A DNA stretch of 33,076 nt. Origin: Cytophagaceae bacterium (lineage in GTDB: Bacteria; Bacteroidota; Bacteroidia; Cytophagales; Spirosomataceae). Position numbers and translations under genes: made by a program. The notes below the pieces were generated by a model. The model searched no databases. It was not told the DNA's origin and saw only the letters and a list, made by a program, of their open reading frames with translations. The stretch lies in contig JAHEAY010000019.1 of the NCBI GenBank assembly GCA_024642485.1, forward strand, positions 1-33,076, in the 5' to 3' direction. Within the stretch, counting starts at the first letter, position 1; the number at the start of each line of letters is the position of its first letter. Below are positions 1 through 32,018 of this stretch, piece by piece.

Positions 1-227
1 GTTCATTGAATCGCGTGACGCGTGTGATTAAGGTATTAGGGATGGTCAATGCGACGGATGATTTTTTACGTCATCCCTATGTGATTAATGGCTGTTCTGA
101 ATTATTTGCCAAAGTTTGGGGTGAAGAAAATGGCATCGGTGTTCGCTCTGCTGTGGGTATGGGGACCTTGCCGGATAATATCCCAGTGGAGATTGAGGCG
201 ATGTTTGAATTGGACGCTGGCTTGTAG
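1..227 (+). CDS. RidA/YjgF-family protein, C-terminal part only
   Basis: This is the 3' end of a gene that begins before the window; the frame is open from base 3. The visible residues (VIKVLGMVNATDDF, then NGCSELFAKVWGEENGIGVRSA and VGMGTLPDNIPVEIEAMFEL) match the C-terminal half of the RidA/YjgF fold, including the conserved Arg-Ser-Ala and the Leu-Pro-x-x-x-Pro-Val-Glu-Ile strand. Family members are small trimeric proteins; the best known deaminate reactive enamine/imine intermediates from pyridoxal-phosphate enzymes. The subfamily and exact substrate cannot be told from this fragment. The TAG stop (225-227) lies inside a copy of the dispersed AGACGCGA hairpin repeat, so the last two or three residues may have been changed by arrival of the repeat. 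Confidence 0.8.
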   Translation, partial: SLNRVTRVIKVLGMVNATDDFLRHPYVINGCSELFAKVWGEENGIGVRSAVGMGTLPDNIPVEIEAMFELDAGL

Positions 228-540
228 AGACGCGATACTCGCGTCTTACAGACGGTGGACTTTAGACGTTGGACGTTAGTTCCTTTGGCAAATTACTATG
301 GATATGTATTTATGAATGTAGAGACGCGATACTCTCGTATTACAGACGGTGGACTTTAGACGTTGGACTTTAGTTCCTTTGGCAAAGCTTGTAGAGACGC
401 GATACTTCGCGTCTTTTTGTTTTTGTAGACGCGAGGTATCGCGTCTCTACAATTTGGAATCGGCGCAAGGCGCCTCAAACTTTGGCAATGCTTAAAGCTT
501 TGCCAAAGAGTCTATAGACGCGAAGTATCGCGTATCTACT
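223..540. repeat. Cluster of dispersed palindromic repeats between ridA-like gene and nadA
   Basis: This gap is almost all repeats. Hairpin A (AGACGCGA-N3/4-TCGCGTCT) occurs at 223-246, 390-414 and 424-451, with degenerate copies at 317-340 and 513-540. Copies one and two are each followed by the same tail, about 50 bases carrying GACGGTGGACTTTAGACGTTGGAC and ending in CCTTTGGCAAA, so 223-292 and 317-386 form a near-identical direct repeat. A hairpin C copy (CTTTGGCAA/TTGCCAAAG) lies at 480-508, preceded by a GGCGC/GCGCC stem near 461-474. The copy at 390-414 is followed by five T, so it could act as a terminator. The same modules recur near 7400, 9300, 25100 and 25700. Confidence 0.85.
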
Positions 541-7383: not shown

Positions 7384-7610
7384 CCTTTGGCAATCCTTTT
7401 AGGTTTGCCAAAGGTTGAGGCGCTTTTTGTGCCGATTCCCCAGGCTAAAGTCTGGGGTTTTTAATAACCTTAGGCTTCAGCCTAGGGATTTGGGGGCCCC
7501 ATCATCCTAATTTTATAACCCTAGGCTTCAGCCTAGGGAATCGATGCTGCGCATCTCAAACTTAGGCAAAGTGCAAAGCTATGCCTAAGAGATAAAGGTT
7601 TGCCAAAGAG
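7384..7610. repeat. Dispersed palindromic repeat cluster upstream of prfC
   Basis: The gap between the APC gene and prfC is a chain of palindromes. Hairpin C (CCTTTGGCAA...TTGCCAAAGG) is at 7384-7414. A GGCGC-type stem follows near 7419-7434. Palindrome D appears as CCCCAGGCTAAAGTCTGGGG (7438-7457), CCTTAGGCTTCAGCCTAGGG (7468-7487) and the perfect CCCTAGGCTTCAGCCTAGGG (7519-7538). A variant hairpin runs from CTTAGGCAAAG to CTATGCCTAAG at 7561-7589, and a lone GGTTTGCCAAAG ends at 7608. No coding potential is seen. Confidence 0.85.
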
Positions 7611-9243: not shown

Positions 9244-9419
9244 CTTTGGCAAAGCTTCGCGCTTTGCCAAAGTTAGAGGCGCTTTTCGCGCCGATTGTTG
9301 TAGAGACGCGATACCTCGCGTCTAGTCCCCCAGGTTAAAACCTGGGGTTATAAATAAAAAAGACGCGAAGTATCGCGTCTCTACAGTTATTAGTTTATTT
9401 AGACGCAATTTTCGCGTCT
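9244..9419. repeat. Dispersed palindromic repeat cluster between prfC and the phosphoglucomutase gene
   Basis: In order: a perfect hairpin C with 12-bp arms (CTTTGGCAAAGC 9244-9255 / GCTTTGCCAAAG 9261-9272); a GGCGC/GCGCC stem near 9277-9292; hairpin A at 9299-9323; the perfect palindrome CCCCAGGTTAAAACCTGGGG (9328-9347) followed by TTATAAAT; hairpin A inverted at 9361-9385; and a degenerate hairpin A at 9401-9419. The two genes here converge, so these hairpins may also end transcription in both directions. Confidence 0.85.
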
Positions 9420-12786: not shown

Positions 12787-12863
12787 GGTCCGGTAGTTCA
12801 GTTGGTTAGAATACATGCCTGTCACGCATGGGGTCGCGGGTTCGAGTCCCGTCCGGACCGCCA
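12787..12863 (+). tRNA. tRNA-Asp (anticodon GTC)
   Basis: The 77 bases fold as a cloverleaf. The acceptor arms are GGTCCGG and CCGGACC with discriminator G; the D arm has GTTCAGTTGGTTAGAAT; the anticodon loop is CTGTCAC (anticodon GTC, reads GAC/GAT codons); and the T arm has GGTTCGAGTC. The CCA end is encoded. It has its own promoter and terminator and marks the left edge of an AT-rich block. Confidence 0.97.
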
Positions 12864-12871
12864 ACTAAGAG

Positions 12872-12902
12872 AAAAGCCTCAGAGAAATCTGAGGCTTTTT
12901 TT
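12872..12902 (+). terminator. Rho-independent terminator of tRNA-Asp
   Basis: A 12-bp perfect stem AAAAGCCTCAGA (12872-12883) / TCTGAGGCTTTT (12888-12899) with a GAAA tetraloop is followed by further T, nine bases after the CCA. Confidence 0.93.
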
Positions 12903-13502
12903 GTACTTATGATAAATGGGCTACTGTATTTCAGAATTATTTAATTTTATCAAAATTCATTTAATTTAAATAACAATATTTTACTGTTTATAAATGGTGC
13001 TAAAATCTATAGTCAAAACTTTCTAAAGCTAATGGTAATTATTAAGACATTTAAGAATGTTGAAATCTTTAAAAATACTAGTCATACCATAATTCCTTAC
13101 AGCTTATATTTCATTAGTAAGTTTCTTTTTTTAATATCCTATATATTGTTTAGCTCGAAATCGTGATCGCATCAAATGCTTATAGGCTTAAATATTACGA
13201 AAACATCAAATCAATTAGACAGATATGGTTTGAATTCTATTTAGAACTGCTCTTTAATAAAAAGAGTTGGCCTGTGGAACCATTAAATCAATTCATGCTA
13301 TTAGTTTTTTAGGTCACGAATAGCAAGTTGGTTAGTGGAATAGCCTTTTCAATCAGAAAGAGGGTTTATTTAAGGTTATTAATATCTATAAATAACCTTT
13401 CTATCAGCTTACTTTTGTTTAACTATGTGCAAGAATAGAAATCAGAAAAGAATATTAATCTTAATGGAAATTGAACCGAAAAATATTTAATAATTAATTT
13501 AT
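12903..13502. other. AT-rich gap with no convincing gene
   Basis: About 600 bases lie between the tRNA terminator and the ATPase gene. It is strongly AT-rich and has no dispersed repeats of the kind found elsewhere. A plus-strand frame is open from 13157 to 13312 (51 codons, no ATG near its start) and continues in the same frame after one TAG to 13438; this may be a decayed gene or chance. A hairpin AAGGTTATT (13372-13380) / AATAACCTT (13391-13399) could end transcription of the ATPase gene. Confidence 0.5.
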
Positions 13503-14777
13503 CTAGCCTGCTATAAGATTTGGTAATCCTGACTCTTTTAATATGTCATCTCGATTTTGATTATTCAACCAAATTATAAAACCCTTGTCAACAATATTTA
13601 TTTTTTTTGTTGTTGAATCATAATCTATTATGATAGGTGTTATTCCATTCCTTACCTGAAGTGATGCGATTGAAGTTAATGCTTGTGTAAGATTACCAGG
13701 ATTTAAATCACTACCTCGTGGATGTTTTTGAGTAATTAAATCATTAATTGTATTTCTTCTTAAGCCATTCTCTAATTCATTCACTTCAGAAACTATTATA
13801 GTGTATAAAATCCATTTATACATTTCCAGTTCTGTTGGTTGAAAACCGTCTGAAAAATCTGAAATAAATTTTGAATATCTACCAGAATGTTGACTTACTA
13901 CTTGATCCAAATATTTATTTAATTTTGAACAATCTAATGCCAATTGCTCACCTTCATATGTATGTACAATACCATTTTCTTTACAAATCAGATAGCAAAC
14001 CTCTTGAATTACATAAACATTTTGCAAGCTTTCTTTTATCAACTTTTCTTTAAATTCATCACTAAATGAAATATTCAATAAATATTCTCCATCATCAATT
14101 AATTTTTTTAATTCTCCATCTTCCCATTTATCCGCATTTACTGATTTAACACGACCAGCTAAGTCACCATTCAATGCAATTAATCTATTTTCTTCCAACC
14201 ATACGCCTACTATTAAAAAAGTGATTTTAGAATTTTCATGAAAAGCCTTTAAAGCTATTGAAAAGTCTTCTTGGGTCTGAGGCTTCAAATAGTGAAAATC
14301 TTCTAAAACAATTATTTTTGAAAATTGATTGTCTTCCAAAGCTTTAATTATATCATTAACATCATCAATATCAATATCCAAACTTTTTACTATTTTTTCT
14401 TTTTGCTTACCTAACTCTCCTTCAACTTCGACATTAGATTTTACAAAAAAATCCCACCCTAAAGTTGCTCTAACTTTTGCCTTTCCTGAAATTGTCAAAG
14501 ATTCAGATAATGATAATTCATAACCCGCTTGTTTTAATATATTATTATGAATTTCACTGAGGTTCATCTTGTTATTACAATGAACGAGAATATAATCATC
14601 TTCATTTATATTCTTTTTTCTAAGTGATGTTTTTCCTTGCTTAGAGCTTCCATATATTACGACATGGTGCGACCGATCTAATGAATCAACCAAAATTGTA
14701 TCAGCAAATCTTTCAATATAATTTAATGGCAAATCCCTTTGGATTCCAAAAACATCTTTCGTTTTATTTACATTCAT
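13503..14777 (-). CDS. P-loop ATPase of unknown role, next to type I restriction genes
   Basis: A 424-residue ATP-binding protein. Walker A is GSSKQGKTS (43-51) after VVIYG, and a likely Walker B is IIVLEDFH (155-162); Asp/His follow the acidic pair as in AAA/STAND-type ATPases. FLIVGVW near 205 could be the sensor strand. The C-terminal 120 residues (TELEMYKWILYTII... to GFIIWLNNQ) look like a winged-helix domain, which STAND NTPases and Orc/Cdc6-like ATPases use to bind DNA or partners. I chose the ATG at 14775-14777; the frame also opens eight codons earlier at a TTG. It lies 261 bases after hsdR on the same strand, with a 16-bp inverted repeat in that gap. A defence or RM-regulating role is inferred from location only. 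Confidence 0.75.
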   Translation of the reverse strand: MNVNKTKDVFGIQRDLPLNYIERFADTILVDSLDRSHHVVIYGSSKQGKTSLRKKNINEDDYILVHCNNKMNLSEIHNNILKQAGYELSLSESLTISGKAKVRATLGWDFFVKSNVEVEGELGKQKEKIVKSLDIDIDDVNDIIKALEDNQFSKIIVLEDFHYLKPQTQEDFSIALKAFHENSKITFLIVGVWLEENRLIALNGDLAGRVKSVNADKWEDGELKKLIDDGEYLLNISFSDEFKEKLIKESLQNVYVIQEVCYLICKENGIVHTYEGEQLALDCSKLNKYLDQVVSQHSGRYSKFISDFSDGFQPTELEMYKWILYTIIVSEVNELENGLRRNTINDLITQKHPRGSDLNPGNLTQALTSIASLQVRNGITPIIIDYDSTTKKINIVDKGFIIWLNNQNRDDILKESGLPNLIAG

Positions 14778-14825
14778 ATTCACATTTCTATAAAATTTCA
14801 ATTAAGTGTATGTAAATGTTTATGG

Positions 14826-14894
14826 GTCCCTAATTAACAGTTAACTTAAAATTAAAGGTTTTCATCAATTCTAAACTGACTGTTAATTTGGGAC
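14826..14894. repeat. 16-bp inverted repeat upstream of the ATPase gene
   Basis: Arms GTCCCTAATTAACAGT (14826-14841) and ACTGTTAATTTGGGAC (14879-14894) pair at 15 of 16 positions around a 37-base spacer. The right arm begins 102 bases, and the left arm 49 bases, before the ATPase ATG. It could be an operator, a hairpin or a recombination site; nothing in the window decides which. Confidence 0.8.
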
Positions 14895-15038
14895 AATTAC
14901 AACTCTACATAATACCCCTGAATCTCTTTTTTTATCTAAAATTGATTTATTGAAACTGTTGATAACTTCACAATTTCAATTTTAAATAGCTTTATTGATA
15001 TACTAATTGCTAAAATTGCGCTTCAACATAAGATGAAA

Positions 15039-18000
15039 TTAAATCCCCAACATTCTTTTTATCGTATCCTGCATAGCACTTTTAAAGCCATCATCTTGTG
15101 AAATTAATCGATACAGATCTAATTCGTTTTTACGTTGCTTACCCATTACGTCATCAAAAATCTTATTAAAAGCAATCTCTCTATTCTGAGCATCTTTATT
15201 ATCAGCATATTTTTCTTTAAAGTCGCTGTGCTCTCTTATTTTTTGGGCAAGGTTTATAAATTTTGCTCTTTGCTCGTCAGGTGTGGCCTCCCACCCTTGA
15301 AACCAACGTTCATTAAAACTCTTTACAATTAAGTCCAAATCGTCTAATTCTGATTCTCCTCCATGTGCAGCTCTGGGATTGGGGTTCTGAGGTTCAACTT
15401 CGGTCTCTGATGAATCAAGACCTATACTTGAGTTTAGCTTTACTCGTTCTAGACCATAGGTTGAAAGATCAACAGAATTCAATAAGCCATCCAATGCATC
15501 ATCCTCATTGTTTACAATTACAAGTTTAGGGATCAAGAATTTTAAAAACCAAAAGAGTTTTTCCCACCTTTGAACTTCATATGGCATAATGGAAGCCATT
15601 TGTCCATATACTTTCACAAAATGCTTCGCTTTAATTTTATAATCTGCTTTTGACTTATCATCTAGTTCCAAAGTGAGATTAAAACGCTCAGCAGCTACAT
15701 CAATTATTGCGCTTAATTCTTGAGCATCTACACCGTCAAAGTATTTATTTACAAAATCCTCTACTTCAGCCCATTCGTAAACCCCTGGCTCGTCTAAATT
15801 TGATTTTAATTCGTGGAGCACATTAATATCGGTGGCACTACTTAATGATGTTGCAGTATAGAAAGGATCAAAGGATTTTTTTATATCCTCAGTAGAATTA
15901 TAAAAATCGAGAATAAATAAATCTTCTGTTTTCTTACCCAATTTATCCGATGAACGATTTAATCTTGATAAGGCTTGAACGGCAATTACCCCTTGTAATT
16001 TCTTATCAACATACATCGCTGATAATTTCGGTTGATCATATCCCGTAAGGTATTTATTCGCCACTACTAAAATTCGGTATTCATCCAAATCGACATACCT
16101 TGCAATTTTGTCTGATATGTAGCCCGGATCAGTTGATTTGGTTGTGTCTAGATTTGCGGGAAAGTCATTAATGTTATCCTCCGTATATTCTATTCCCTTA
16201 ATTTTCTTCATTCCTGAAAAAGCAATAGCGATCTTAAAGGGATTACCCCGTTCTTCAAGCATTTCTTTAAATGCGAAATAATAATTGATGGCAGATTCAA
16301 TACTTTGAGCAGCGACAATAGCTTTGGCTTTACCTTTTAACTTTTTAGTATTTACTAATTTTGTCAAAAAGTGCTCAAGCATTATATCCGCTTTAGTAGC
16401 AATGGTTTGTTTATTCTGCTCAACGTAGGTACGTAATTTCTTTTGTGCCTTTACTGTATCAAATAAAGGATTTTCTTGAATCGATTTTTCAATTTCGTAA
16501 TAGCTTTTATATGTAGTGTAATTTGCTAATACATCTAAAATAAATCCTTCTTCTATGGCTTGTTTCATAGAATACAAATGGAAAGGTTTGTATTTCCCAT
16601 CTGCCTGCTTAACTCCAAAACGCTCAAGTGTATTATTCTTCGGTGTTGCAGTGAAAGCTAGGTAAGACGCATTGCCACGCATTTTGCGTGAACGCATAGC
16701 CTCAAGAATTTTATCTTGTGGGTCTTGATCCTCGTCTTCATCGGTTTCAGCTAATGAATTGCCCATAGCTTGATTCATCTTTCCTGCGGCACTACCGCTT
16801 TGACTCGAATGAGCCTCATCTATAATGACCGCAAAACGCTTTTCGCTTAAATCTGCAATACCATCAACTATAAATGGAAACTTTTGAATGGTAGTGATGA
16901 TTATTTTCTTACCACTCTCCAAACTTTCTTTTAGATCTTTGGATGAGTATGCTGGAGCAACAATATTTTTAACCTCAGAGAATTCTTTAATATTTTCACG
17001 AAGCTGTTTGTCTAATAAACGCCTATCGGTTACTACTATTACCGAATCAAATAACGGATTTGTTATCCCTTTACTTCCAGGGATTGAATCACTTTCAGGA
17101 TAGGTCTCGATAAGTTGATATGCTGCCCAGGTGATTGAATTCGATTTACCAGAACCGGCGCTATGTTGAATCAAATAGGTTTGTCCAACACCTTTGCTGC
17201 TGGCATCAGCAATTAACTTTCTCACCACATCTAATTGATGATATCTGGGAAAATAAAGTGTTTTTTTATTTAAAGGATCTGTATCTTTTCCATCAAAGCG
17301 GACAAAATGCTGAATGATGTTAGCAACGCTTTTTCTAGTCAAAATCTCATCCCATAAATACGATGTTTTATGGCCAAATGGGTTAGGAGGATTTCCCTTT
17401 CCAAATAAAGGTTCACGTTGACCTAAATTAAAAGGCAAGAAAAACGTACTTGCACCATTTAGTTTAGTGGTCATGTATACCTCATCTGTATCAACAGCAA
17501 AGTGAACAATGCATCGACCAAAATTTAAAAGGGGTTGCGTTATGTCTCTTTTATTCTTGTATTGATACTGACCATGAACCTTTGCATTTTGACCAGTCCA
17601 ATGATTCTTAAGCTCCATTGTAGCAAATGGCAAACCATTTACAAAAAGAACCATATCAATCTCCTCACCAGTAGGGGATGTCGAATATCGAAGTTGACGA
17701 GTTGAACTAAATTGATTGCTTTCGAAATTCGACTTAACAGTTTCACTGCTACTTGCAAGTGGCAACGGATAGAGTAAAGTAAAGTGCGCATCGTCTATGT
17801 CTAAGCCTTTGCGAAATAAACGAAGAATACCGTATTTTTTAATCATACGATCTAGGCGTTCTAAAATTTTTAGCTTCCAATCAGTTTGCTTTTGGAGCTT
17901 AGCTAATTCTTCTCTTTGAGTGGTTTGCATGAAGTCCCAGAATCGAAATTCATCAATTGCGTATTTGGCATTGAAATCTTCTGGCAATCCAATATAATAG

Positions 18001-18143
18001 CCATTGCCGGAACGATAAATCTCAGTTCGTTCATTGACCGTGTTTAAAGGAACATTCTGTTCCTTTAATTCTTCCAGACAACTTCCAGTAAGTCTCTTTT
18101 CGATAGTGGCTTCTAGCGCCTGTTCATTCGTTTTACTCGGCAT
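15039..18143 (-). CDS. hsdR: Type I restriction enzyme, restriction and translocation subunit
   Basis: HsdR cuts DNA after ATP-driven translocation when the HsdMS core binds an unmethylated site. The 1034-residue protein begins with a PD-(D/E)XK nuclease domain (Asp163 in EIDMVLFVNG, then Glu177-x-Lys179 in MELKN). The SF2 motor follows: Walker A HSAGSGKSNS (GSGKS 330-334), DEAH (442-445), then AFTATPKNNT, and the second RecA lobe with VVANKYLTGYDQPKLSAMYVDKKL and QALSRLNRSSD. The C-terminal helical region would contact the methylase core. All nuclease and helicase motifs are intact, so it should be active. Its start overlaps the hsdS end by 11 bases, which suggests coupled translation. Confidence 0.96.
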   Translation of the reverse strand: MPSKTNEQALEATIEKRLTGSCLEELKEQNVPLNTVNERTEIYRSGNGYYIGLPEDFNAKYAIDEFRFWDFMQTTQREELAKLQKQTDWKLKILERLDRMIKKYGILRLFRKGLDIDDAHFTLLYPLPLASSSETVKSNFESNQFSSTRQLRYSTSPTGEEIDMVLFVNGLPFATMELKNHWTGQNAKVHGQYQYKNKRDITQPLLNFGRCIVHFAVDTDEVYMTTKLNGASTFFLPFNLGQREPLFGKGNPPNPFGHKTSYLWDEILTRKSVANIIQHFVRFDGKDTDPLNKKTLYFPRYHQLDVVRKLIADASSKGVGQTYLIQHSAGSGKSNSITWAAYQLIETYPESDSIPGSKGITNPLFDSVIVVTDRRLLDKQLRENIKEFSEVKNIVAPAYSSKDLKESLESGKKIIITTIQKFPFIVDGIADLSEKRFAVIIDEAHSSQSGSAAGKMNQAMGNSLAETDEDEDQDPQDKILEAMRSRKMRGNASYLAFTATPKNNTLERFGVKQADGKYKPFHLYSMKQAIEEGFILDVLANYTTYKSYYEIEKSIQENPLFDTVKAQKKLRTYVEQNKQTIATKADIMLEHFLTKLVNTKKLKGKAKAIVAAQSIESAINYYFAFKEMLEERGNPFKIAIAFSGMKKIKGIEYTEDNINDFPANLDTTKSTDPGYISDKIARYVDLDEYRILVVANKYLTGYDQPKLSAMYVDKKLQGVIAVQALSRLNRSSDKLGKKTEDLFILDFYNSTEDIKKSFDPFYTATSLSSATDINVLHELKSNLDEPGVYEWAEVEDFVNKYFDGVDAQELSAIIDVAAERFNLTLELDDKSKADYKIKAKHFVKVYGQMASIMPYEVQRWEKLFWFLKFLIPKLVIVNNEDDALDGLLNSVDLSTYGLERVKLNSSIGLDSSETEVEPQNPNPRAAHGGESELDDLDLIVKSFNERWFQGWEATPDEQRAKFINLAQKIREHSDFKEKYADNKDAQNREIAFNKIFDDVMGKQRKNELDLYRLISQDDGFKSAMQDTIKRMLGI

Positions 18144-19395
18144 CGTTATATACTTTAATTTTACCTGTTACTGCACTATTTATCAATGTGGCTTTGTATT
18201 CTTTTAGCTTTTCTATTTCTTGTTCTTTCAGGGAAATAGTGGTAGAAATTTTATCAGATACAGTTTCTAAATAGGAAGAAATTTCGTCTAAATCTTTTAG
18301 AGTAGGGACAATTACTTTGACCGCACTTAGATTTCCTCTTGACAATTTGGGTTGTGCAGCTCCTGAAATAAAAACTGTGTAATCAATTAGGCTTAGTTGT
18401 TCTGCCCAATAATTAAATCCTTCGAATAATGGCCTCAATATATGAGCATGATTATTAACCCAAAATTTACCATTAGCGACAAATGCCAATGGTGTAGATT
18501 TGCTAAGTAAATTAGCACCATCTTCACCGATAAGAATTAATTTCTCATCAAATATATATTGATCTATGTAATCAATAATTCCACTTGCTCCGTAATAAGG
18601 GAAATTGCCTACCATATTTTCTCTTTCTATCGCACTTAAAGGAATTCTTTTATTATTTAAAAATTCAAAAGCATACCTAAGATTTTTAACTTCCCAATGT
18701 TCAGGAATCTCCCCAATCCATTCCACACCACTATCCTTCATTTTAACATCAGGATTTAACCCATGGGTAACTGCTTTGTGAATGAGTATTTGTCTACGTT
18801 CTTGAAGCAGCTCAATTTGCTTTTGTTTGATGTCAATCGCTTGGTCGATTAACGCTGTTTTACGATCAAGAAATGCAGCAATTGCGGTTTGTTCGCGAAG
18901 GGGAGGGAAAATTAAGTCGCAATTGGCAATGTCATTCCAGTTGAGTGTTTGCCTTACTCCCGAACCTAATACCTTCATAAAGGCAACATCAAATCGATGT
19001 AAGAAGTACTTATAAAAAGTTTTATCAAGTTGGACGGAATTACTTAAAACAATATAACCTGAACTAACAACTACATCAATATTTGATAATGCAATTCGTA
19101 AACTAATTAGGTCATAATTTAGATTCAATGGGTTTACTAAAAAATCACCTTTATTTACAACTTGATAAGATTTTTTTGTTGATTCTGGTATTTTTTCATC
19201 ATCCTTATAAACTACTTTTCCAAAACTAATTGAACCGCAATTCAAATTAGGATTGCTACGTTTCTTTATTTCATAGAAGACCCTTTTAAATTTCTTCACT
19301 TCCCAATGAGCTGGTACATCCTCAACCCATTCAATACCAGAATTCTTATATGCCGAGTATCTAATTGACGGCATATTTTTTATCGTAGTTTCCAT
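18133..19395 (-). CDS. hsdS: Type I restriction enzyme, specificity subunit
   Basis: HsdS reads the bipartite DNA target. The 420 residues show the typical two-fold plan: TRD1 opening with SGIEWVEDVPAHWEVKKFKR and TRD2 opening with SGVEWIGEIPEHWEVKNLR. Each is followed by a conserved helical spacer: PPLREQTAIAAFLDRKTALIDQAI then IKQKQIELLQERRQILIHKAVTHGL in the centre, and LETVSDKISTTISLKEQEIEKLKEYKATLINSAVTGKI at the end. The two TRDs differ in their variable parts, as expected for two different half-sites. Its ATG overlaps the hsdM stop by one base (TAATG). The recognition sequence cannot be predicted by eye. Confidence 0.95.
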   Translation of the reverse strand: METTIKNMPSIRYSAYKNSGIEWVEDVPAHWEVKKFKRVFYEIKKRSNPNLNCGSISFGKVVYKDDEKIPESTKKSYQVVNKGDFLVNPLNLNYDLISLRIALSNIDVVVSSGYIVLSNSVQLDKTFYKYFLHRFDVAFMKVLGSGVRQTLNWNDIANCDLIFPPLREQTAIAAFLDRKTALIDQAIDIKQKQIELLQERRQILIHKAVTHGLNPDVKMKDSGVEWIGEIPEHWEVKNLRYAFEFLNNKRIPLSAIERENMVGNFPYYGASGIIDYIDQYIFDEKLILIGEDGANLLSKSTPLAFVANGKFWVNNHAHILRPLFEGFNYWAEQLSLIDYTVFISGAAQPKLSRGNLSAVKVIVPTLKDLDEISSYLETVSDKISTTISLKEQEIEKLKEYKATLINSAVTGKIKVYNDAE

Positions 19396-21761
19396 TAAGC
19401 TAGATTTAAAATTTCACGAATTAAACCATCACTCAAATCTTCCAACTTCAAGATGTCAGAGCTTATTTCATCTATGTCACGAATTGGTTTGTGTCGGTAG
19501 AAGTATTTATTGAAACTAATTTCATACCCAATTTTTGTAGCGTCTAGATTTATCCAAGCTTCATCTACATGAGGCTTTACTTCACGCAAAAAGTAACTAT
19601 AAATGTTTTCTTTGAGAGGTACATTTTCTGTGTCACGCAAATCACTCTCGGTTTCATATTCAAGGTATTCGCCTTTTACATCGGTAGCAAAATAACCATA
19701 GCTTGCTAGTTCATTTTCACTACAATCCAAATGTTCCAGCAATTGATCTAGTTTATCGCCGGTTAATTTTTTGACTCCTTTAACCACTTTTTCTGCTTCA
19801 AGATCATACCAACTCACTGCATTTAAAATAGTGCTTTTCTCCGACGCTGATAGTTTTATTTTTTTAACTTTCAATACCTCATCTACCGTCTCTTTAAGTA
19901 AATTAAAGTCGCTGCATTCTTCATTACCTATTTTTTGCATTAAATCAGTAGCGATATTTAATAATCCCAATTGCTTATCCCATAAAGCTTCACTCACTAA
20001 TGCTTTGCTTTGTTTGGCATTTAAATTCAGTTCATTTCTTTCACACCATTCAATAATTTCTTTTTCGATTTTGGCAATATCTGTATAAACCATTTCTCCA
20101 AAGGTTTCATAAGCCCAAACCATCGCTTCACGTAATGATTTGTCAAATCGTAATTCGGCAATTCGCTCTTCAGTAAATTGTGCTTTTAAACGTTTAGGTC
20201 GCTCAATGGTAACTTTATAATAACCAAAATCTGTATTGTCAAATAATTGAGATGCAATACCTTCTTCCTCTTTTGTTTCATCATTAATAACACGATCTAC
20301 AGCTTGCATATTTGAATAAACGGAAACAATTTCCCGAATATGTTCAGGTGCAAACTCGCAATTTTTATTGCCTAGATTCTTACGCAATTTGCGGAACAAT
20401 AAACCTGCATCAATCAATTGCACCTTACCTTGCCTATTCTTAGCTTTATTGTTACTTAAAATCCAGATGTAAGTTGTTATACCAGTATTGTAGAACAAGT
20501 TATTGGGCAGTTGCACAATGGCTTCTAACCAATCATTTTCGATAATATATCTCCGAATGTTGCTTTCTCCTCCACCAGCATCTCCGGTAAATAAACTACT
20601 TCCATTATGCACAGAAGCAATTCTCGAACCTAATGGACTTTGAGATAATGGCTTCATTTTATTTACCATCTCCATTAAAAATAGTAATTGTCCATCTGAT
20701 GAACGAGGTGTCGCATCAGCATCTTCCTCTATACCCCAATAATTGCTAAGCCTAATTTGAAAACGGGGGTCTATTATATCTTTACCGTCCTTAATGTATT
20801 TTTTCTCTGTATCCCACGATTTACCGTAAGGGGGATTAGAAAGCATAAAATCAAAGGTAGTTCCTGCAAATTCATCAGTACTCAGCGTTGAACCTACACG
20901 AATGTTTTCAGGGTTATTCCCTTTGATCATCATATCCGATTTACAAATAGCATAGGTCTCATCATTGATCTCCTTGCCGTATAAATAGACATCCCCTTTT
21001 GCCTTAATTTCTCCTTCTTCATCCTTTACAAAATTTTGGGATTCTGTCAGCATTCCACCGCTACCACATGCAGGATCATAAATGGTCATTACAGGAGGGA
21101 GTTTATCTTTGATTGGCTCAAAAATAATATGGGTCATTAAATCAATTACTTCACGAGGAGTAAAGTGCTCCCCAGCTTCCTCATTATTGTCTTCATTGAA
21201 CTTACGAATCAGTTCCTCAAAAACATAACCCATTCCAAGATTGGTCAAAGGAGGCAGTTTACGCCCATCTGGATCATTCTTTTCGAAAGGTGTAAGATTT
21301 ATATATGGTGAAGTAAATTTCTCCAAAACGTTTAGCAAGACATCTTTTGAGGCCATGTGACGAACCTGACTCTTGAGTTTAAACTTCTCTATTATTTCTT
21401 TCACATTACCACTAAAACCGTTCAAATAATCCTCAAAATTGGCTTGAAGAATTTGCTGGTTATTAGTTGCAGTATCGTGTAAACGTTGCAAAGTCCACTC
21501 ACTCGTATTGTAAAAAACATAACAGCTTGCTTGTCTTAATCCATTTTCATCCCATTCCGTAAACTTTGCCACGTCTCGTTGAAACGCCAACTCTTCCAAC
21601 ACTGCAGCTTTTGTTGTTTCAAGTAATGCATCCAATCTACGTAGTACCACCATCGGTAAAATTACATCACGGTATTTTCCTCGGACATATACGTCACGAA
21701 GACATTCGTCTGCTATTGACCAAATGAATGAGATTGATTTATTGTGGACTGATTGGTTCAT
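19395..21761 (-). CDS. hsdM: Type I restriction enzyme, N6-adenine methyltransferase subunit with long C-terminal extension
   Basis: HsdM transfers methyl groups from S-adenosylmethionine to adenine in the site chosen by HsdS. The N-terminal helical domain (IADECLRDVYVRGKYRDVILPMVVLRRLD) is followed by HFTPREV (199-205), the SAM motif DPACGSGG (229-236) and the catalytic NPPY (309-312). At 788 residues it is well beyond the roughly 500-550 of classical HsdM. The extra part, after about residue 520, is helical and charged with no motif that I recognise; it may contact HsdR or HsdS. It is first in the hsdM-hsdS-hsdR operon. No clear TAnnTTTG promoter box is visible in the gap before it. Confidence 0.95.
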   Translation of the reverse strand: MNQSVHNKSISFIWSIADECLRDVYVRGKYRDVILPMVVLRRLDALLETTKAAVLEELAFQRDVAKFTEWDENGLRQASCYVFYNTSEWTLQRLHDTATNNQQILQANFEDYLNGFSGNVKEIIEKFKLKSQVRHMASKDVLLNVLEKFTSPYINLTPFEKNDPDGRKLPPLTNLGMGYVFEELIRKFNEDNNEEAGEHFTPREVIDLMTHIIFEPIKDKLPPVMTIYDPACGSGGMLTESQNFVKDEEGEIKAKGDVYLYGKEINDETYAICKSDMMIKGNNPENIRVGSTLSTDEFAGTTFDFMLSNPPYGKSWDTEKKYIKDGKDIIDPRFQIRLSNYWGIEEDADATPRSSDGQLLFLMEMVNKMKPLSQSPLGSRIASVHNGSSLFTGDAGGGESNIRRYIIENDWLEAIVQLPNNLFYNTGITTYIWILSNNKAKNRQGKVQLIDAGLLFRKLRKNLGNKNCEFAPEHIREIVSVYSNMQAVDRVINDETKEEEGIASQLFDNTDFGYYKVTIERPKRLKAQFTEERIAELRFDKSLREAMVWAYETFGEMVYTDIAKIEKEIIEWCERNELNLNAKQSKALVSEALWDKQLGLLNIATDLMQKIGNEECSDFNLLKETVDEVLKVKKIKLSASEKSTILNAVSWYDLEAEKVVKGVKKLTGDKLDQLLEHLDCSENELASYGYFATDVKGEYLEYETESDLRDTENVPLKENIYSYFLREVKPHVDEAWINLDATKIGYEISFNKYFYRHKPIRDIDEISSDILKLEDLSDGLIREILNLA

Positions 21762-22025
21762 TCTTTTCTAGTGTTATTTTATATAATTCTATTTGATTTT
21801 ATTCGTTAGGTATTTTTTTTCATAAACATACCCGATTTCTATTTCGTTTTTAATCTTAAAAGGCACTTCAATTCTCCTATAATCTTAATCTTTAATGTCG
21901 TAGAATTTGATAAAAATAATTTAATTAACTACCTCATTTAATTATTGAATAAAAAAGTCAGTAGCCGTTGTATATTTTTGATGTTTTTCCATGTAGATTA
22001 ATTGATAATGCAAATACCTAATTAA
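21762..22025. other. AT-rich gap before hsdM with no recognised feature
   Basis: This 264-base stretch separates the hsdM start from the end of the frame that follows the OLD-type gene. It must contain the hsd promoter unless the operon is read through from the OLD gene, but I find no exact TAnnTTTG box on the minus strand. No repeat of the host families and no convincing small gene are present. Confidence 0.4.
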
Positions 22026-22190
22026 TTACTTCAGATTATTCCTTATTGCTCTCGTTATTATTTTTAGAATTGTGTCAAGTTGAAACCATAGGTTTTCAGC
22101 CTTAGTAATAAGATTATTTTCTTTTAAATGTTGATGCAGAGAAATATAGTTATAGAGCAAAAAAAATGCCAAAGGGCACTTATCCGCCAA
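22026..22190 (-). pseudogene. Out-of-frame continuation of the OLD-type gene (probable frameshifted C-terminus)
   Basis: Overlapping the stop of the OLD-type gene, the +1 frame is open from 22244 down to a TAA at 22026-22028 and reads as a plausible helical protein (ADKCPLAFFLLYNYISL, then HLKENNLITKAENLWFQLD and ILKIITRAIRNNLK). There is no ATG; only a TTG (22188-22190) could start it. Removing one base from the T run at 22207-22210 (A run on the coding strand) would join it to the OLD protein, giving 627 residues. Either this is the lost C-terminus or it is a separate 54-residue gene; I favour the first. Confidence 0.5.
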
Positions 22191-23910
22191 TTTTATTAGA
22201 CTCTTGTTTTGTGGTGCTGTTAATTTGCTTGTTAATTTTAGCCGCTAGTTTATAAAATTCACTAAAATATGTTTCGTCAAATTTAATGTCTTTTTTAAAC
22301 TCGGTTAAATACAGCGATTTCAGTCTTTTTTTAGCTGATTCTCTTTCGTCTTTATCTTCAGATTGAATTGCAAAAACTAACTCCGCATTTTCAGCATTTA
22401 CTTTTGTCTTGATAAAGTCAGGGAGAAGTCCTTCTACACAGCGGTAGCCTGGTTTGTCTATTCCAATTTTAAAATAATCGACTTCGTTACGATATCCCGC
22501 TTTGTCAAAATTTGATCTTACATGACCAATTGCGTCAAGGTCAATTGTCACAATTAGTTTATTGAAACGTTCTTTAAGAAACTTCAATAAAACAGGATTA
22601 TTTAAAAATCCAAAGCCATCATATGGATATAATTCACCTTCAAACTGAAGTCTTTTTGTCCCGTGTTTTTTGTCCCTTAATAGGTTGAAATATTCAACAT
22701 CAATTTTTCCTTCCAAAAGTATTATGTTGTTGGACTTGCTAAAAAACGCTTCTTTTAAACTTTCAAATTCTGGCCCTACCATACCTAAAGCTAACTCAAA
22801 TGGATCTCTCCAGTTTTCACCTTCTATATTTTCAATTACAGACTCTCTGGTTTTATTTCTAATAATATTTCGCTTTACCAAAATATTCGATTTGGGATTG
22901 TAATGACTCAGTAAATACGGGCTATGGGTTGTAGCAATAACTTGAATTTCTAGCTCTTTACTTAAGTCTTGCAGAATTCTTCCAAATTCAGATTGAGCCG
23001 AAGGGTGCAAAAAAGATTCAGGTTCTTCAATAATTACTATAGGGGTAATTTTATTAGATTCATCATCATGATTGATTAAGTTTTTTGCATTGAAAATGCT
23101 ACTTAAAATCAAAGTTCTATTTTTTGTTCCACTTCCCCATTCTTCGAGAGGTAATTCAAAATTACTTTCACCTAATGATATTTCATAAGGTATATTCTCA
23201 TAGTCCATATCAAATCCACTGATCGACAAACTTACTTCATACTTTTCAGTTAATCGCCCGATTAACTCCTGTAACTCTGACTTGTGTTTTTTAATTGCTT
23301 TGGATAACTCTTTGTTAATTTGATTAACTTTTCCTTCAATCAACTCTTTTGTTTTAACATTTAAACTATCCAATTGTCCGTGTTGTTGTGACCGTCTAAA
23401 CGGATTCATCGGTTGCGTGGAATTATGAAATACAATAACCTGTGCAAAGTTTATACGCCTTAAGATTTCACCTACTTTATAAATATCGGTTACGGTCTTG
23501 TCATCAACTGAAATATTAATCTGATTTTCCTTAGGATTAGGAGTCACTATTAACTTTATGATAAGTAAAGTGTCCTCTATTTCTAACTCTTGAAATTCTT
23601 CTTTGCTTTCTTGCAAAAACACATTTAAGAATTTTATTAGCCCAATATCTCCAGTTTTGTCAAGTTGAACTTGAACTGTGATTTCAATATTTTCTTTAGT
23701 AGACTTCGCCTTCCATATTGGGAAGTCTTGATGATAATTTATTCTATTTCTGGGTCCCATTTGTCTTTCAAAAACATTTAGGATGGCTCTAATAATATTA
23801 GATTTTCCAGAATTATTCTTACCACAAATTGCAGTATAGAAATCTTCAAATTCAATGTTGCAATCTTCAAAAGACCTAAAATTTTTTAAATGTATGTCTT
23901 TTATTTTCAT
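22180..23910 (-). CDS. OLD-family ATPase/Toprim nuclease
   Basis: This 576-residue protein joins an ABC/SMC-like ATPase to a Toprim nuclease, the arrangement of OLD-family nucleases such as phage P2 Old and the GajA part of Gabija. The ATPase shows KNFRSFEDCNIEF, Walker A GKNNSGKS (30-37), a signature-like WGSGTKNR (258-265), Walker B IVIIEEPE (291-298) and the H-loop TTHSPYLL (327-334). A coiled stretch lies around 185-222. The Toprim part has Glu400 in NIILLEGKIDVEYF and Asp457-x-Asp459 in LIVTIDLDAIG. No GajB-like helicase lies beside it, so a lone class 1 OLD nuclease is more likely than Gabija. It is the first gene of the defence block. The C-terminus seems to be cut by a frameshift. Confidence 0.88.
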   Translation of the reverse strand: MKIKDIHLKNFRSFEDCNIEFEDFYTAICGKNNSGKSNIIRAILNVFERQMGPRNRINYHQDFPIWKAKSTKENIEITVQVQLDKTGDIGLIKFLNVFLQESKEEFQELEIEDTLLIIKLIVTPNPKENQINISVDDKTVTDIYKVGEILRRINFAQVIVFHNSTQPMNPFRRSQQHGQLDSLNVKTKELIEGKVNQINKELSKAIKKHKSELQELIGRLTEKYEVSLSISGFDMDYENIPYEISLGESNFELPLEEWGSGTKNRTLILSSIFNAKNLINHDDESNKITPIVIIEEPESFLHPSAQSEFGRILQDLSKELEIQVIATTHSPYLLSHYNPKSNILVKRNIIRNKTRESVIENIEGENWRDPFELALGMVGPEFESLKEAFFSKSNNIILLEGKIDVEYFNLLRDKKHGTKRLQFEGELYPYDGFGFLNNPVLLKFLKERFNKLIVTIDLDAIGHVRSNFDKAGYRNEVDYFKIGIDKPGYRCVEGLLPDFIKTKVNAENAELVFAIQSEDKDERESAKKRLKSLYLTEFKKDIKFDETYFSEFYKLAAKINKQINSTTKQESNKIGG

Positions 23911-24039
23911 AATGTCGGTCTATTTTTAAAATGCCACAATTCACTTATTCAAGAATAATCTTTTCGTTTATCCCTCATAATTTAGAATTAATTAATAAGG
24001 GTTTTCTTGGCTCCTCCCTTAAAATAATAGTCAAATTAT

Positions 24040-24873
24040 TTATACAACCATTTCCACCTCTCCCGGCATTCCCCTCAAAATCCGTTCCACCGGCTCCATA
24101 CTATTTACCTCCCCTTCCAGCAACCAAGATCCGTCCGCTTGTTCCTTCAAAAAAGGTGCCGTTGCCGGATAATCATCTTTTAAGAAGAGCATGGCCCGCA
24201 TGCTTAATTTTAGCTTGATTGGGAATTTGGAGCCTGTCTCGTTGAAACCAAAGACATCCGGTTTCAATAGGAGATGTGCTTCTTTAAATTTATGATTTTC
24301 TACTAATATTTCAATGGCAAACATGCGTTCCAGTTTGAAATATTTGTTCTGCGCTGACGCTGGTTCATAAGCACAGAGGTATTGATAGTTGGCCGTAAAT
24401 CCAATCGGCTCCACGCGTCGGTCGCTGATGCTTTCGCTGCTGGCCGACTGGTATTTATGCAGGATGATTTGTTTTTCGGTGGATATCGCCTCCTTGATTT
24501 GCGTGACGAGTTTGGCTAAATGACCAGCGAGGATGTGTTGGCCCATCGCATGTTGTTCATCCAAATAAGGCAACTTACTCAAAATGGATGCGGCCAAGGG
24601 ATGGTTTTTGGCAGCTACGGTAATCGTCTCGTGGATCAAAGTCGCTTCCTCTTTGGTCAAGGGTTCCGAGAAATCCTCTGCCGGGATGAAGAATTTGTTG
24701 TGCGCATCCTTTTCCACCACAAAACCCAGTTCGGCCAATAAATCCAAATAGCGGTAGCAAGACCGTTCGGAGATTTCGAGGGATTGTGCGAGGCGTTTGA
24801 TGGACTTGTTGGGAAAAGCCTTCAACAAACTGATCAACTTGAATACGCGTAAAATACGATGTTGGTTGAACAT
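24040..24873 (-). CDS. HTH-WYL transcriptional regulator
   Basis: A 277-residue regulator. The N-terminal winged helix-turn-helix (RVFKLISLLKAFPNKSIKRLAQSLEISERSCYRYLDLLAELGFVV, about residues 9-53) is of the DeoR/HTH_11 type. A central helical part follows. A WYL-like domain then runs from about residue 155 (VEPIGFTANYQYLCAYEPASAQNKYFKLERMFAIEIL), in which such proteins bind nucleic acid or small ligands. WYL regulators often control defence genes, but the base composition here matches the host chromosome, so this is probably the first resident gene right of the AT-rich block rather than part of it. Its targets are unknown. Confidence 0.82.
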   Translation of the reverse strand: MFNQHRILRVFKLISLLKAFPNKSIKRLAQSLEISERSCYRYLDLLAELGFVVEKDAHNKFFIPAEDFSEPLTKEEATLIHETITVAAKNHPLAASILSKLPYLDEQHAMGQHILAGHLAKLVTQIKEAISTEKQIILHKYQSASSESISDRRVEPIGFTANYQYLCAYEPASAQNKYFKLERMFAIEILVENHKFKEAHLLLKPDVFGFNETGSKFPIKLKLSMRAMLFLKDDYPATAPFLKEQADGSWLLEGEVNSMEPVERILRGMPGEVEMVV

Positions 24874-24954: not shown

Positions 24955-25178
24955 ACATTGGACGTTAGACGTTGGACGTTAGTCCGGAGGGAATAGTCCG
25001 AAGGGATTAGTCGGGAGTCGCTAGTCACTAGTCTGGAGGGGGGCTGAAAGAATATTAGATTTTAGATTCAAGATTTATGGGTACGTTTTTTTGACCCCCC
25101 CCAGGTTAAAACCTGGGGTTATAAATATCCCTAAGCTTTAGCCTAGGGAATAGACGCGAGGTATCGCGTCTCTACACG
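24955..25178. repeat. Dispersed repeat cluster upstream of the gene at 25274
   Basis: The units are GACGTTAGACGTTGGACGTTAGTC (about 24961-24984), an AGTCSGxxGGGA-type string, GTCGCTAGTCACTAGTC (about 25016-25032), the perfect palindrome CCCCAGGTTAAAACCTGGGG (25099-25118) followed by TTATAAAT, CCCTAAGCTTTAGCCTAGGG (25129-25148), and hairpin A at 25151-25176. The pair 25099-25126 repeats 9328-9355 base for base. No gene is seen between 24874 and 25273. Confidence 0.85.
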
Positions 25179-25624: not shown

Positions 25625-25794
25625 CTTTGGCAAACCGGTGAGGTTTGCCAAAGAGGGCTACTCAAGACTGTATTATGCATTACCCAGGGCTTTGGCCTAG
25701 GGACTAGACGCGAGGTGTCGCGTCTCTACAGTCAAAGGATCAATCGACGCGAAATGCGTCTCAAACTTTGGCAATCCCAGGAGGTTTGCCAAAG
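25625..25794. repeat. Dispersed repeat cluster before the TPR lipoprotein gene
   Basis: Hairpin C with 12-bp arms (CTTTGGCAAACC 25625-25636 / GGTTTGCCAAAG 25642-25653), a D-type palindrome CCCAGGGCTTTGGCCTAGGG (25683-25702), hairpin A (25705-25730), a short GACGCGAAATGCGTC stem (25745-25759) and a second hairpin C (25766-25794). This is the order seen at 390-508, partly inverted. Confidence 0.85.
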
Positions 25795-30158: not shown

Positions 30159-30202
30159 TACCTTTGGCAAACCTGGTTGGAGGATTGCCAAAGGTAGCGC
30201 GT
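30159..30202. repeat. 44-bp dispersed repeat, copy 1
   Basis: A hairpin C element: TACCTTTGGCAA ... TTGCCAAAGGTA arms around ACCTGGTTGGAGGA, then GCGCGT. It matches 31844-31887 at 43 of 44 positions. A related partial copy lies just before it (30133-30146). Confidence 0.9.
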
Positions 30203-31843: not shown

Positions 31844-31887
31844 TACCTTTGGCAAACCTGGTTGGAGGATTGCCAAAGGTAGTGCGT
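31844..31887. repeat. 44-bp dispersed repeat, copy 2
   Basis: Same orientation and sequence as 30159-30202 except for one base (GTGCGT for GCGCGT). A half copy (GGTTTGCCAAAGCTATTGAG) is at 31990-32009. Bases 31890-32018 hold no other feature I can support. Confidence 0.9.
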
Positions 31888-32018
31888 GGGTAGTAATTTA
31901 AAAGCTGATAAACTGATTCAAATTATCAACAAGCTGGTTATTATAAAGCCTATATGTCCCAATTTCCCCGTAGATTTGGCACTCCTTCAAGGTTTGCCAA
32001 AGCTATTGAGGGGGTAAA

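Follow-up and report, generated by a model that had tools for sequence, protein, structure and literature searches.

Introduction

REPs are usually described inside genera, and the BIMEs of enterobacteria are mosaics of REPs in alternating orientation, interspersed with other short motifs. The published systems closest to the repeats analyzed here are cited from excerpts of the respective papers. GTAG REPs and the REPINs that they form (Di Nocera 2013, PMC3733652; for REPINs also Bertels and Rainey 2011, PMC3116915) have a terminal GTAG, an 8-bp stem and a short loop, and are arranged as head-to-head dimers. They are intergenic and clustered, have heterogeneous stems and are associated with RAYTs, all of which is found again in the module A described below. 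The excerpts of the survey PMC3733652 report GTAG repeats in Proteobacteria, Cyanobacteria, Chloroflexi and the PVC group, Bacteroidetes not being listed there, and state that REPtrons can be missing in REP-bearing species. TnpA-REP of E. coli binds single-stranded DNA at GTAG and at the foot of the hairpin (excerpts of PMC8266576 and PMC6006769). RAYTs of subclass 2.4 (group 4; Quentin 2018, excerpts of PMC6006769) come from Cyanobacteria, Bacteroidetes and scattered phyla, with canonical and double-foot REPs and with REP insertions in the gene. In the TIRtrons, a RAYT-like gene, the TIRYT, lies between inverted repeats unlike GTAG REPs, and related palindromes are dispersed (excerpts of PMC3733652 and PMC6006769). 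Subclass 2.1 is provisionally equated with these TIRYTs, and no REP-like sequence was found at its genes, according to the excerpts of PMC6006769, where the BIMEs of enterobacteria are described as well.

The window is the whole stretch of 33,076 nucleotides that was analyzed, contig C32 of a MAG (G000) of 2.54 Mb in 238 contigs, 89% complete. Its intergenic gaps contain a mosaic of short palindromes that is real, lineage-specific and partly ordered; the families are new, and the kind of system is known. Most probably, small non-autonomous REP elements have piled up in a BIME-like manner, moved by transposases acting on single-stranded DNA (RAYT/TnpA-REP, HUH-Y1). In contrast to enterobacterial BIMEs, the gaps are occupied by two unrelated palindrome systems together with the orphan modules B and D. 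A text search of the literature for the literal string GTAGAGACGCGA matched no paper, which as a string match means that the repeat could still be published.

Modules in the window

The hairpins A, B, C and D are all found where a preliminary description, made from the sequence of the window, had placed them, and the view that several short palindromic families are interleaved within intergenic gaps was confirmed. Nine copies of A are present in the window, and B, with its GGCGC stem, adjoins C. The sequence TAGAGACGCGA is present 11 times if up to one mismatch is allowed; shuffled sequences gave an expectation of 0.24. Three copies of C had been missed: two of a TACC..GGTA form, which are listed, and a diverged copy near 31975.

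224-246, plus strand: A, GTAG-tagged REP hairpin
318-340, plus strand: A, slightly decayed
391-414, plus strand: A, head-to-head REPIN with 427-450, spacer 12 nt
427-450, minus strand: A, REPIN partner of 391-414
458-479, plus strand: B hairpin (AATCGGCGC..GCGCCTCAAA)
480-508, unstranded: C palindrome (CTTTGGCAA..TTGCCAAAG)
516-539, minus strand: A, slightly decayed
7385-7413, unstranded: C palindrome
7414-7437, minus strand: B hairpin, joined to C and abutting D (by eye; outside the B pattern match)
7438-7457, unstranded: D palindrome
7468-7487, unstranded: D palindrome, 10 nt after the D at 7438-7457
7519-7538, unstranded: D palindrome
7539-7560, plus strand: B hairpin, GATGC..GCATC variant
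7561-7589, unstranded: C variant (CTTAGGCAA..ATGCCTAAG; by eye)
9244-9272, unstranded: C palindrome
9273-9296, minus strand: B hairpin
9300-9323, plus strand: A, left REP of a REPIN with D in the spacer
9328-9347, unstranded: D inside the A...A spacer
9361-9384, minus strand: A, right REP of the 9300-9323 REPIN
25099-25118, unstranded: D palindrome
25129-25148, unstranded: D palindrome, 10 nt from the D at 25099-25118 and 3 nt from A
25152-25175, minus strand: A
25625-25653, unstranded: C palindrome
25683-25702, unstranded: D, decayed
25706-25729, minus strand: A
25742-25765, plus strand: B hairpin, GACGC..GCGTC variant
25766-25794, unstranded: C palindrome
30162-30193, unstranded: C palindrome, TACC..GGTA form
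31847-31878, unstranded: C, second TACC..GGTA copy, 88% identical over 59 nt to the form at 30162-30193

The C variant at 7561-7589 and the C-B at 7385 bracket the D array in inverted order. Beyond the window the modules are numerous, as had been anticipated: 81 strict A matches (none in the backwards control) and 45 D sites are spread across the whole genome.

No A, B, C or D module was found between 12903 and 24039, in agreement with the preliminary description. This absence is weak evidence, as the chance that five clusters all fall in the other two thirds of the window is about 0.13 by simple arithmetic. In the region 12787-24873, a tRNA-Asp precedes a type I restriction-modification cluster with HsdR, HsdS and HsdM, as well as genes for an AAA_15-type ATPase, an AAA_22-like protein and a WYL regulator; the lack of modules from 12903 to 24039 in this region is as in a recently gained island. 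A search of the window with Rfam returned the tRNA alone, which was typed as tRNA-Asp by ARAGORN.

Covariation of the stems was examined in hand-chosen rows, 20 for C (13 distinct), 18 for A (13 distinct) and 15 for D from the own genome (14 distinct); kinship among rows inflates the scores of such sets. The score of A was 0.218, against 0.068 in shuffles, none of 500 being as high, and all cells were paired; the number of further pair types was reached by 56 of 500 shuffles. GTAG and the first five stem pairs are invariant among the 18 sequences, a constancy that is partly due to selection, as the rows were picked with a GTAGAGACG foot. For C, six pairs showed changes on both sides and the score was 0.444 against 0.183 (0/500 as high), with the count of both-side-changed pairs reached by 53 of 500 shuffles and that of further pair types by all 500; ten of the 20 rows have a T-T mismatch at pair 10-20. 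For D, the score was 0.344 against 0.199 (0/500 as high), and the corresponding counts were reached by 34 and 448 of 500 shuffles. The modules had been described as shuffled and inverted with their internal pairing kept. The pairing is upheld by the covariation. Free shuffling is not, in view of the orientation of neighboring A copies and of the recurring short junction spacings presented below.

Module A is a GTAG REP

The A unit reads GTAG-AGACGCGA-TAYY-TCGCGTCT and consists of GTAG and an 8-bp stem; a GT[AG]G tetranucleotide is present at the foot of the hairpin, on the 5' side. Among strict A matches of the own genome lying within 250 nt of each other, 15 neighbors are plus-minus, none minus-plus, nine plus-plus and six minus-minus. 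A relaxed scan of the stretches fetched from this genome gave 24 plus-minus, 0 minus-plus, 14 plus-plus and 10 minus-minus neighbors, in addition to two pairs that include a double-foot copy. The lack of minus-plus neighbors means that GTAG faces outward, as in REPINs. The spacers of the relaxed plus-minus pairs measure 9-15 nt in 17 of 24 cases. An exception to the orientation rule was found outside the genus, in G454, which has a minus-then-plus A pair 81 nt apart. Double-foot palindromes, perhaps left by deletion, account for three of the strict A sites. In the fetched stretches, one of the 81 copies lies largely inside an ATG open reading frame of at least 150 residues. A was compared with the GTAG repeats of PMC3733652 by their description in the excerpted text and not by consensus sequences, and may or may not coincide with one of the cyanobacterial families of that survey.

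Module C resembles palindromes flanking a second RAYT

The own genome appeared to be devoid of RAYT when searched with Pfam PF01797 (Y1_Tnp), which gave no match. This was overturned by a protein query, which found a RAYT gene, unrecognized by Pfam, on contig C114. This second RAYT is present in 24 of 38 genomes of the genus at E < 1e-55; a twenty-fifth genome was matched by the query only via another RAYT lineage. In the loci that were read, its neighbors are presumably genes of fructose-bisphosphate aldolase, siroheme synthase or pirin, which they resemble. Palindromes of 29-31 nt flank the gene on both sides in 23 of the 24 loci; the remaining locus is truncated and has one on a single side. 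These palindromes differ by lineage through paired substitutions. RAYT and flanking palindromes changed together in 24 genomes of the genus, which provide a set for matching protein residues to the stem bases that are read.

The arrangement is like that of the TIRtrons. The motifs NHFH (HUH) and YIHVNP then SS (Y) are close to those tabled for subclass 2.1 in the excerpts of PMC6006769, to which the second RAYT probably belongs, judged by motif. Unlike the description of subclass 2.1 in those excerpts, its flanks are self-complementary hairpins of 29-31 nt with stems covarying over 24 genomes. Neither this RAYT nor the A-type RAYT presented below was matched in sequence by a solved structure at E 0.01.

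The flanks of the C114 gene read CTTTGCCAA, whereas CTTTGGCAA is the reading of all 12 clear dispersed copies of C within about 392 kb of own sequence. These 12 remained from 14 C-pattern matches after two ill-fitting ones (L049 and L051:6584) were set aside. Dispersed C copies of the own-flank form were absent from the 392 kb, GGC being found in dispersed copies against GCC at the RAYT flanks. The two forms have the same length and share eight of nine outer letters; they differ at pair 6-24. Among the RAYT flanks read, those of G023 alone match the dispersed form. Dispersed C is likely linked to the second RAYT, inexactly, as the copies differ from the own RAYT flanks at one stem pair.

Two further RAYT types were observed in the genus. 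One lineage (L251, L252, L254, L256) has AACGCTG[TC]C-type flanking palindromes; it was not found in the own genome, the stretches of which contain three AACGCTGCCGGGGTC-type hairpins. Another type in G033, G016 and G025 (L327, L328, L329, L353) scores above the NF047646 cut-off and is flanked by GTTCGACATG-type inverted hairpins. It may correspond to the published Bacteroidetes subclass 2.6.

Modules D and B and the order of the mosaics

D occurs in seven of 38 genomes of the genus (G000, G003, G006, G011, G012, G023 and G035). All 16 genomes that are clean and at least 90% complete lack it. A set of 193 RAYT-type loci, with many duplicates, contained neither D nor B, and no mobilizer for either was found. 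The approximately 392 kb of own sequence contain 48 clusters, of which 34 combine at least two modules and 12 at least two kinds; the counts of B, C and D are biased, as the stretches were picked for holding A.

Several junctions recur. C is followed at 3 nt by B in six clusters, B abuts D (0 nt) in three, and D lies 2-4 nt from A in four; the spacing between D copies is 7-13 nt in most pairs. One cluster (L059:132-256) shows the complete order C-B-D-D-A, and in L048 D is located on the GTAG side of A. With their ordered clusters of REPs and other motifs, these mosaics have the arrangement of BIMEs.

Such C-B, B-D, D-D and D-A junctions, and the single cluster with the full order, would be explained if one composite element, C-B-D-D-A, had been mobilized whole and then trimmed, instead of families nesting within each other. 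Most clusters, however, consist of A alone, and those with at least two kinds are the minority counted above. Elsewhere, D and A are 9-18 nt or farther apart. D is absent from the congeneric genome G001, in which A has 35 strict matches, and in the permease-prfC gap described below a D core that is alike in G011 and G000 lies between A copies in the former and between C-B modules in the latter. A single composite element is an improbable origin of the mosaics, which are better read as families nested in each other.

Turnover of the permease-prfC gap

The intergenic gap between a permease gene and prfC was compared among relatives. This comparison is between species. The gap contains, by eye, C-B-D-D-D-B-C in G000; A-D-D-D-D-A, with one decayed D, in G011; D-D in G003; C, C-B and a partial A in G006; and variants of C only in G012. 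The relatives with differing mosaics are 87-90% identical in prfC, and the ends of the gap are alike. In G023 the gene upstream differs, and D, B and C modules are present. In G007, G020, G022 and G031, about 80% identical at prfC, the gap is free of modules and contains a terminator-like hairpin only. The preliminary description had named, as the case against mobility, the same copies at the same places in all relatives; at the level of gap contents between species, this is contradicted by the differing mosaics found here. The comparison shows a fast turnover of intergenic DNA.

These data also bear on the explanation that the hairpins are mainly functional elements of the host, such as terminators, stabilizers of mRNA 3' ends or a nucleoid-protein site, kept under selection and without active movement. 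Almost every copy examined is intergenic, and the stems covary, with a few G-U cells in D, as those of RNA hairpins would. Such elements are nonetheless difficult to reconcile with a gap whose contents vary among close relatives, with a number of strict A matches per genome that ranges from 0 to 81 within the genus, and with the tie of A to a transposase gene across phyla. This explanation is improbable, and the pile-up of mobile REP elements is retained.

The same gap in G019 and G036 (L303, L306) has CTTTGGCAATCC half-site arrays and longer CTTTGTCAAACC...GGATTGACAAAG palindromes, a different and expanded C-type system.

Module A and its RAYT across phyla

Among the relatives, A was found in 22 of 59 genomes (own included), and in 18 of 37 in the genus by a hand count. 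In an even draw of the phylum, A was found in 26 genomes out of 395, the own genome among them, and in 15 of 171 genera. When 257 Gb of species genomes were scanned for exact matches, at least 119 stretches were returned, against about 0.5 expected by chance from simple arithmetic with uniform bases. Among the matches listed, titles name Cyanobacteria, Bacteroidota, Balneolia, Gammaproteobacteria and the candidate phyla Moranbacteria and Torokbacteria, and named isolates of Nostoc, Calothrix, Fischerella, Hymenobacter and Mucilaginibacter are included.

A RAYT associated with A was found by searching the 38 genomes of the genus with the NCBIfam profile REP_Tyr_transpos. In G011 and in G001, a RAYT gene lies between copies of A, and the two genes are 64% identical; the RAYT of the G011 type has 167 residues. 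This A-type RAYT was found in two of the 18 A-bearing genomes of the genus; the assemblies are incomplete, and repeats break contigs. In the own MAG, no A-type RAYT was detected at E 0.01, nor any family member at E 0.1 except the C114 gene. The link with a RAYT that had been raised for the palindromes was borne out in the genus, where RAYT genes lie beside A- and C-type palindromes. The A-type RAYTs possess HUH and Y motifs. They match REP_Tyr_transpos at 6e-14 and 9e-16, and four proteins of other lineages do so at 3e-6 to 3e-13, all below the 80-bit cut-off; the A-type proteins of the genus score under the cut-off of NF047646.

A homologue of the A-type RAYT is present in 24 of the 33 A-bearing genomes from the cross-phylum scan. 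A tree of 26 sequences groups in a single clade (support 98/96) the 18 that have GTAGAGACG palindromes inside the gene or no more than 300 nt away, and the other eight have none; these yes/no labels were set by hand, those of L370 and L373 included. Ten members of the clade are from Bacteroidota, four from Cyanobacteriota, three from Patescibacteria and one from Balneolota. Over the whole tree, phyla change seven times, the minimum being three and the mean of shuffled trees 10.9, with 2 of 200 shuffles as low. Phyla are more clustered than in shuffles, so transfer of the RAYT between phyla is not free; the distribution is mixed, not random.

Sequences left out of the tree were either partial, broken, off-family or without full frame (L369, L374, L376, L377, L379, L380, L383, L385), or repeats of included rows or genus relatives (L387-L402). 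Outside the tree, GTAGAGACG palindromes are found at L374, L379, L383 and L385, and other GTAG hairpins at L376 and L377. L392 and L393, RAYTs of the genus with the same N-terminal motif in A-free genomes, have no GTAG hairpin in their loci.

The cross-phylum match could be ascribed to chance likeness or mis-binned contigs, as many of the listed genomes are MAGs, but the numbers of the scan, the named isolates and the RAYT homologues with GTAGAGACG palindromes in those genomes make this barely credible. Many RAYTs in A-bearing genomes of other phyla are members of other subfamilies with different palindromes, and these were dropped as partners of A. Plasmids were considered as the vehicle of the A-type RAYT, and there was little sign of this, with a homologue in four of 72,556 records, the best 39% identical.

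The features of the A-type RAYT clade fit the published subclass 2.4, in which it is placed by these features and not by subclass profiles. The likeness extends to the mixture of phyla and to the canonical and double-foot REPs, whereas the genus members L331 and L354 have REPs beside the gene instead of insertions in it (compared with excerpts of PMC6006769). The claim that the mosaic is a system larger than a REP family does not hold as to its kind: A belongs to the GTAG REPs and REPINs, C resembles the palindromes that flank RAYTs, and both kinds are published (excerpts of PMC3733652 and PMC6006769). The 20 defined letters of A, together with a linked transposase clade in at least four phyla, offer a test of the conservation or the transfer of a RAYT recognition site.

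Proposed origin of the mosaics

The intergenic hairpins have the look of hitch-hikers on enzymes of two kinds, both of which cut single strands. The subclass 2.4 RAYT probably reads the constant part of A, GTAG and the AGACG foot. By analogy with E. coli TnpA-REP, its binding to single-stranded DNA would probably be at GTAG and the foot of the hairpin. The head-to-head A pair, a REPIN whose two halves are most often about 10 nt apart, would be the probable unit that is cut, copied or inserted, and its spacer can hold D. REPINs would spread as non-autonomous elements into tolerant gaps, including the spacers of earlier elements. C would be related to the palindromes that flank the second, chromosomal RAYT, and D and B would ride with A and C at the recurring junctions, perhaps as passengers. 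It is presumed that the RAYTs cut and move the repeats, and that A was spread in the own species by a RAYT of the G011/G001 type, since lost or missing from the assembly. Any selective role of the repeats would be conjectural.

A bolder version, offered tentatively and thought unlikely, is that one RAYT lineage carried a near-unchanged hairpin (GTAG-AGACG) between phyla, and that the REPINs of the genus bracket D arrays as cargo, forming composite nested elements that are mobilized even in genomes now lacking the enzyme.

Period-7 tracts

Degenerate tracts with a period of seven (GACGTTG/GACGTTA and AGTCGCTAGTC types) are found beside palindromes at 250-281, 344-375, 2829-2852 and 24955-25040. 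TAACTGA heptamers in Beggiatoaceae are the subject of PMC4679880 (excerpt). An enrichment of such tracts near A was considered. They accompany 12 of 81 A copies against 7 of 1488 random positions, yet 78 of 1260 intergenic positions have them too; they were not built on, as the excess over intergenic positions is modest. In other genomes, period-7 tracts were found near 15 of 144 A copies and at 293 of 6761 intergenic controls.
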